A DNA stretch of 64,000 nt. Source: Lachnospiraceae bacterium MA2020. GTDB lineage: Bacteria; Bacillota; Clostridia; Lachnospirales; Lachnospiraceae. The notes beneath the pieces are model-generated. The model made no database searches and was not told where the DNA came from. It saw nothing but the letters and a program-made list of their open reading frames with translations. Location of the stretch: NCBI GenBank assembly GCA_000746015.1, contig JQKK01000011.1, positions 1 through 64,000 of the forward strand, read 5' to 3'. Within the stretch, counting starts at the first letter, position 1. Each line of letters opens with the position of its first letter. Shown here one piece after another: positions 40,201 through 40,804 of this stretch. The position numbers were made by a program, and so were the translations under genes.

Positions 40201-40804
40201 TGAGCTTGAAAACGTACAGGCGGTTTCAAAGGACAAAAAGGCTGTTTCAACAGTATCTGATAACAAGCCAGCTACAGAGACAGTTACAACTATCGTTGGA
40301 TCGGACGGAAACACATATGTTATCACAACTCCTACAAATCTTCCATTCTCAGGACGTAAGTTCAAGATCGGCGGAAAGAAGGGCCTCAAGGTAACTGTAA
40401 GTGTAAACGGTGTTAAGTATGTAGTTAAGTCTGCAAAGCTTAAGGATAACAAGGCTGTAGGTAAGGCTACATTCACTATCAAGAAGCTTGATACAAAGAA
40501 GGATGCAAGCGGAAACAAGGTTCCGGATAAGGCTAAAGCAAAGGCTGCTTCAAAGGTTATCAAGGGAACAGAGCTTTCATTTGATATCGTTGCAGCTGAG
40601 CTTACAAAGGATAACGTTACTCTTAAGATGAAGGGCGATACTATCAAGAAGGTAACAGCTACTCTTAAGGATAACAATGGTAAGGAAAAGAAGTATAAGC
40701 TTAAGTCAGGTACAGATTATGAGCTTGTAAGCGATAACAAGGTTCTCTCATTCAAGGGCAACTATAAGGGAACATTGGCTGTAGATCAGGCTACAAAGAA
40801 ATAA
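37223..40804 (+). CDS. Secreted GH3 beta-glucosidase, domain-swapped, with C-terminal surface module
   Basis: 1193 residues. A signal peptide (about 1-34, cleaved after AYAQ) comes first. The usual GH3 order is reversed: the alpha/beta C domain starts at residue 50 ([20 protein letters not shown]), the fibronectin-III-like domain follows (about 325-440), and the barrel N domain comes last (about 595-860), with [20 protein letters not shown] and nucleophile D808 in TTDWFS. This C-then-N order is known from ruminal beta-glucosidases. Residues 1040-1193 form a separate module shared with two other secreted proteins here. The enzyme probably cleaves cello- or other beta-oligosaccharides at the cell surface. 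GGAGG precedes the ATG. Confidence 0.92.
   Translation: [1193 protein letters not shown]

Follow-up and report, generated by a model that had tools for sequence, protein, structure and literature searches.

An excerpt of PMC5817068 lists CWB2, SLH, LysM, WXL and GW/SH3 as wall-binding domains. Choline-binding repeats of the CWB1 type (PF01473; Choline_bind_3, PF19127) sit at the C-termini of secreted enzymes, and a passage in PMC2914790 gives wall anchoring of polysaccharidases as the believed role of the PF01473 repeats in Butyrivibrio proteoclasticus. A passage in PMC11181022 describes SLAP/SlpA_III (IPR024968) of Lactobacillus as a basic C-terminal domain that binds teichoic acid non-covalently.

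We analysed a stretch of 64,000 nucleotides from Lachnospiraceae bacterium MA2020 (contig JQKK01000011.1, positions 1 to 64,000; hereafter the window), in which three secreted proteins end in one homologous module. Overall, the module has the traits of non-covalent C-terminal retention modules as a kind: it is terminal, it follows a linker and it is found on many unrelated secreted hosts. With CWB2, SLH, LysM, WXL and GW/SH3 the likeness is also one of kind, a single putative wall-binding domain on many secreted proteins. The choline-binding repeats resemble the module in being C-terminal on secreted enzymes, but they are short repeats, whereas the module is one unit with no repeat found between its halves. 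SLAP/SlpA_III resembles it in being basic and C-terminal, and the non-covalent teichoic acid binding of SlpA may serve, by analogy, as a working model. On the other hand, SLAP is absent from the listed Pfam matches, the published SlpA motif YxY....KxxN occurs in none of 70 modules, and it was domain I of SlpA, not domain III, that gave the non-significant PDB match reported below. The Ig-like YDG/MBG/Big repeats show a weak profile resemblance through one genome of another genus (G519) and have phrases such as AGTATVTI and GNFTG in common with the module; these repeats are tandem, whereas the module is one basic terminal copy with unlike halves and no Foldseek match.

The kind of system is already known; the module family itself is in none of the libraries searched, in line with a sequence-only reading of this DNA that had recognised no family. 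When whole proteins and modules were scanned against Pfam and NCBIfam, no family passed the cut-offs shown for the module. The alignments used include a 13-row alignment of MA2020 modules (profile A1), a broader 26-row profile that includes the GH3 enzyme, LRR2 and others of the 70 proteins, and profile A7, made of 19 of these 26 rows. The scans of alignment members covered 13 members for A1 (25 of 29 families listed) and 19 for A7 (all 18 families listed), with LRR2 as whole protein only. Among the matches listed (25 of 29 families), the best E-value was 7.9e-4, for Mfa_like_1 in one member; Big_7 reached 17.6 bits in one member, below its cut-off of 24.1. The listed Pfam matches of the 13 and 19 members included neither PF01473 nor PF19127, and none of SLH, CWB2, LysM, WXL, GW and SLAP. 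No account of the module was found among the listed titles and abstracts of open-licence PMC papers.

One module at the ends of three window proteins

The first protein is a secreted GH3 enzyme of 1193 aa (37223..40804, plus strand) whose open reading frame matches PF01915, PF14310 and PF00933; the Pfam scan showed the permuted domain order GH3_C, Fn3-like, GH3_N, and the start is signal peptide-like. Profile searches placed its C-terminal module at residues 1032-1193 (40316..40801, plus strand; net charge +23). Within it, alignments marked a 14-residue lysine-rich segment (residues 1102-1115; 40526..40567, plus strand), which aligns with the predicted helix of the LRR1 model. LRR1, a secreted BspA-type LRR_5 protein of 510 aa (48872..50404, plus strand; PF13306, E 5e-46), continues through a Pro/Glu/Ser/Asn-rich linker (residues 315-370; 49814..49981, plus strand; the left limit is approximate) into a module delimited by similarity searches at residues 371-510 (49982..50401, plus strand; net charge +18). 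LRR2, also a secreted BspA-type LRR_5 protein (655 aa; 55280..57247, minus strand; PF13306, E 4.5e-25), has its module at residues 456-655 (55283..55882, minus strand; net charge +22). The LRR2 module belongs to a longer subtype, which it has in common with L037, a second GH3 protein of MA2020 that carries our own label "NagZ-like". The three proteins are as the earlier reading had described them, and the motifs it quoted are present in their C-terminal parts. Its statement that they have no LPXTG was also borne out: all three end in the module itself (...LAVDQATKK in the GH3 enzyme, ...GSYTLK in LRR1 and ...PTQYSK in LRR2).

That reading had further proposed that the three ends follow one pattern, and we found them to be one homologous module. 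In pairwise comparison the GH3-LRR1 pair alone was clearly significant, and both LRR2 pairs were marginal. With the LRR1 module as query, a search of MA2020 with a limit of E 10 found 12 further places, and for ten of these E was no higher than 2e-4. A 45-module profile that contains LRR1 and leaves out the GH3 enzyme and LRR2 matched the GH3 module at 6e-17 and L037 at 2e-8. In profile comparison the GH3 module matched A1 with 97.1% probability; the LRR2 type reached 70% against A1 and 13% against the single GH3 module. LRR2 joins the family by a bridge, namely the end of L037, which matches LRR2 directly (E 2.9e-12), and a profile of the L037 subtype. This profile has four rows, L037 with L083, L084 and L044 (fetched with A1 from other genomes), and none from the window, and it matches all three window modules (LRR2, E 8.4e-13; LRR1, E 2.7e-9; GH3, E 2.6e-6). 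Shuffled and reversed GH3 and LRR2 ends gave no match to it.

Independently of any reading of function, LRR2 could be unrelated and merely convergent in composition. The main-type profiles missed it (E 11 and 640), A7 found it at E 0.0013, and its structural model is poor. Against this stand the match to the L037-type profile, which also finds LRR1 and GH3, and the shuffles, which reached at most 10.2 bits compared with 54.9 bits for LRR2. We therefore regard convergence as very improbable. The aligned modules have several traits in common: an aromatic-x-Gly-Lys/Arg-Lys start, a Gly/Tyr hairpin, a Lys-rich strand, the lysine helix and a Phe-x-Gly...Gly end.

Anatomy, charge and predicted fold

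Our reading covered 70 distinct proteins with the module, among them the three of the window; they are a chosen subset of the matches from MA2020 and seven other sources. The module is a single unit of roughly 130-200 aa at the very end of its host. The match ended at most 9 residues from the C-terminus in 68 of the 70 (13 and 40 residues in the remaining two), and in 69 proteins no more than 13 aa follow the match. A second module stretch was found in none of the 70 at E 1e-3. Internal duplication as an origin was rejected, the halves of the module not being alike (1.3% probability). An LPXTG-like motif, hydrophobic segment and basic tail were not found on the module proteins.

The net charge of the module exceeded +5 in 68 of the 70 proteins, with a median of +17.5. 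For the upstream parts we used the 62 proteins in which 180 aa or more precede the module and whose start is not truncated by the end of the locus. In 60 of these, a net negative upstream part precedes a positive module. By simple rules applied with no control, the start looks like a signal peptide in 57 of the 62, and a linker enriched in P, S, T, N, E, D, K, Q and G is present in 53. This charge step was present in 54 of the 57 module proteins, compared with 10 of 70 signal-peptide-like controls. Five of these ten controls turned out to carry a module (L065, L090, L108 and two in L098); the five without a module are likewise acidic proteins with a basic end. The sole breakers of the charge pattern among the 62 were L028 (337 aa) and L160 (400 aa). 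These come from two genomes and share 46% identity over 336 residues; their modules are close to neutral (-1 and +1), and their upstream parts are slightly basic. Charge alone can therefore not be the rule.

Residue conservation was computed on 60 of the 70 modules. Positions 385, 409, 431, 469 and 484 (LRR1 numbering) are K or R in 85-92% of these, and K427, K431, K434 and K438 are lysine in 74-82%. The last four lie in a lysine-striped helix region of LRR1 (residues 427-438; 50150..50185, plus strand), delimited from the AlphaFold2 model and the 60 aligned modules, and their 4-3-4 spacing would place the lysines on one face of the predicted helix. Positions 381, 487 and 498 are aromatic in 90-100% of the 60 modules.

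The LRR1 module was modelled by AlphaFold2 from five sequences with confidence (pLDDT 93.2, pTM 0.76). In the model, which is beta-rich, residues 427-436 form a long helix, and a second, short one lies near the start. The model of the LRR2 module (pLDDT 52) was unusable. Foldseek with the LRR1 model gave nothing at E 0.001 in the PDB or in BFVD (viral), the best PDB match being at E 0.19; since the search covered these two collections, the fold may exist among proteins without a solved structure. A PDB sequence search with the LRR1 module gave as best match SlpA domain I, a self-assembly domain of Lactobacillus, at a non-significant E of 0.046, and the same search with the GH3 module gave no match. 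A PDB profile search returned ribosomal L38 and crystallins, none with an E below 0.14, and SlpA domain I was absent from it. With a confident model and no PDB match, the LRR1 module is a good target for structure determination.

Hosts and distribution

The module sits on LRR_5 proteins (LRR1, LRR2), a DUF285-type LRR protein (L021), the permuted GH3 enzyme of the window, an ordinary GH3 (L037), a subtilase of family S8 (L035), a pectinesterase of family CE8 (L023), a Big_2 protein (L036) and a CBM4_9 protein (L026). A host in the metagenome-assembled genome RUG14895 (L102) carries MBG_2 and YDG repeats, and four hosts (L024, L027, L058, L060) had no Pfam match at the thresholds used. So wide a range of unrelated hosts points to a general service, for instance localisation, and not to one substrate. 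In one pair of MA2020 loci (L058 and L059; C25:2378-2854 and C39:4082-4558) the modules are nearly identical and the parts between signal peptide and module clearly different, which suggests that the module was transferred recently or that the gene was duplicated in part.

In MA2020 the module was matched at no fewer than 20 places by A1 (E 0.01), 13 of these 20 by construction, and at 24 by the broader profile; the window holds three. The weakest MA2020 matches were L097, L033 and L030 (E 2e-6 to 5e-4). The GH3 module was not listed by the A1 scan, so the A1 counts are lower bounds.

Globally, the module is clade-bound in its distribution and rare outside the genus. Among 150 Lachnospiraceae genomes drawn evenly, A1 found it in two, MA2020 and one with six matches (G052). 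Among 392 genomes of the order, with at most 10 candidates scored per genome, three had it, MA2020 included; the other two matches were weak, and one of them (G519) sits in tandem repeats resembling YDG/MBG. Within the genus, A1 found the module in at least 22 of 48 genomes, with 1 to 22 matches each; the bearers include Lachnospiraceae bacterium KH1P17, MC2017 and RUG14895. A protein tree of guaB was built by quick search for 43 of the 48 genomes and rooted at the midpoint (support 85 on both sides); three genomes without a guaB match (G154, G156, G158) and two with fragments (G159, G173) were left out. One side of the tree holds 22 genomes, among them the 20 with two or more matches; none of the 21 opposite has as many. 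Three changes suffice to explain this distribution, which none of 500 shuffles achieved. One genome with a single match (G155) lies on the far side and was scored as without; G158 bears the module and stands outside the tree. The plasmid collection gave no module match. In another genome (G194, contig C10, 53943-62438) three matches with similar scores are spaced at roughly 3-5 kb. Their frames are short (142-147 aa), and one of these contains an internal stop; together they may be a broken tandem array.

Exchange with choline-binding repeats and the proposed role

We compared the window enzyme with its relatives in a GH3 tree of 20 frames, some of them partial. It groups with the GH3 proteins of G170, G171, G161 and G189, next to L132 and L133 (from G174 and G177), in a clade of seven with an SH-aLRT of 97. 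The G170 and G171 proteins carry the module of the window enzyme at their ends; the G189 protein ends in a divergent, weakly matching module (E 1e-4 with A1, 0.028 with A7), and the gene of G161 is cut by a contig end. L132 and L133 run into choline-binding repeats (PF19127) at the place of the module. The truncated frame of L132 scored 26.8 bits with Choline_bind_3, just under the cut-off of 27, and the genome scan gave matches over the cut-off in the L132 gene and the G177 gene; PF19127 had no match at E 0.001 in genome G000. The next clade holds eleven shorter frames of 778-913 aa, nine of them without a signal-peptide-like start, and the five ends read among them (L121, L122, L124, L126, L130) stop after the catalytic part, with no C-terminal appendage. 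Shorter GH3 proteins of the genus match the window enzyme in the same permuted domain order. The positional exchange of module and choline-binding repeats in the sister GH3 lineage is the strongest hint at mechanism. The repeats as an exclusive alternative to the module were rejected, since G174 and G177 have both.

A module in the place of choline-binding repeats, basic and following a linker, is best read as a putative wall-retention module with an SlpA-like mode, without belonging to the SlpA family. We therefore favor, with modest confidence, the view that this is a clade-specific module for non-covalent C-terminal surface retention, probably binding an anionic wall polymer. Its C-terminal place without a sortase signal, its basic charge on acidic, unrelated hosts and the exchange in the GH3 lineage fit such anchoring; from the sequences we infer the wall retention, its electrostatic mode and the nature of the ligand. 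In the proposed mechanism, the hosts would leave the cell by the Sec route via their N-terminal signal peptides, the disordered linker would carry the host part outward, and the module, folded, basic and last in the chain, would bind an anionic polymer in the wall of the same cell with no covalent bond. Candidates for this polymer would be a teichoic acid-like polymer or a wall polysaccharide, and binding would go through the conserved lysine set, in which the spacing of the four helix residues would bring them to one face. In this way the cell would keep enzymes (two GH3 types, pectinesterase, subtilase) as well as LRR or CBM proteins at its surface. A more far-reaching version, which we hold only tentatively and find doubtful as a whole, is an anchor with a fold outside the PDB that arose in one Lachnospiraceae clade, spread to up to 20 or more proteins per genome and targets a wall polymer peculiar to that clade.

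Other functions have to be weighed against wall retention. The module might bind carbohydrate or fibre, so that its hosts would be attached to mucus or plant material and not to the cell that produces them. Among the hosts, the CBM4_9 protein, the pectinesterase and the GH3 enzymes would suit this, as would the conserved aromatics (381, 487 and 498 in LRR1), which sugar-binding sites often have, and the rumen links of three bearers: MC2017 and RUG14895 are presumably of rumen origin, and KH1P17 reportedly occurs in a study of ruminal bacteria (PMC7533575). Yet a subtilase and many LRR proteins are hosts too, the module is C-terminal, strongly basic and present once per protein, and no CBM family passed its cut-off among the matches listed, all of which makes carbohydrate binding unlikely. 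Many copies per genome would also suit a common acceptor, so that the module could be a protein-protein unit docking its hosts on one surface scaffold, or could self-assemble in the manner of an S-layer. The best PDB sequence match of the LRR1 module, the self-assembly domain I of SlpA (E 0.046), points the same way, but it is not significant and did not recur in the profile search; we consider such docking rather unlikely.

It seems quite improbable that the module is just a structural spacer or cap, derived from Ig-like repeats as a degenerate YDG/MBG-type pair and having no ligand of its own. A7 weakly matches the repeats of G519 (E 1.6e-5, or 4e-5 with a 7.6-bit bias; the repeat type was assigned by eye), and the host L102 carries repeats of both types. 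By contrast, the two halves lack the similarity expected of a repeat pair, Foldseek gave no match at E 0.001, Ig-like or otherwise, and the conserved lysines together with the charge step suggest selection for binding.

If wall retention is correct, the module would provide a mechanism for holding fibre-degrading enzymes, a protease and LRR proteins at the surface of one group of gut bacteria, a step for which the libraries searched hold no domain. Many proteins per genome would become readable as surface proteins, the module would be usable as a display tag for enzymes on these anaerobes, and it would point to an uncharacterised wall polymer.

Sortases were found in 46 of the 48 genomes of the genus, so covalent anchoring is also available, and the idea that the module replaces an absent sortase system was rejected on this ground. 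In MA2020 itself, a 1908-aa LRR-matching protein (L034; C1:5500-18500) ends in a sortase-like PKTAD motif and a hydrophobic segment and is not matched by the module profiles; covalent anchoring thus seems to coexist with the module in this genome. Three further LRR-matching proteins of MA2020, L031 (1243 aa; C10:143000-150500), L032 (1007 aa; C4:178500-186500) and L033 (1090 aa; C12:68500-77000), end in another basic C-terminal region with what look by eye like Big_2-type repeats, possibly a second retention module.
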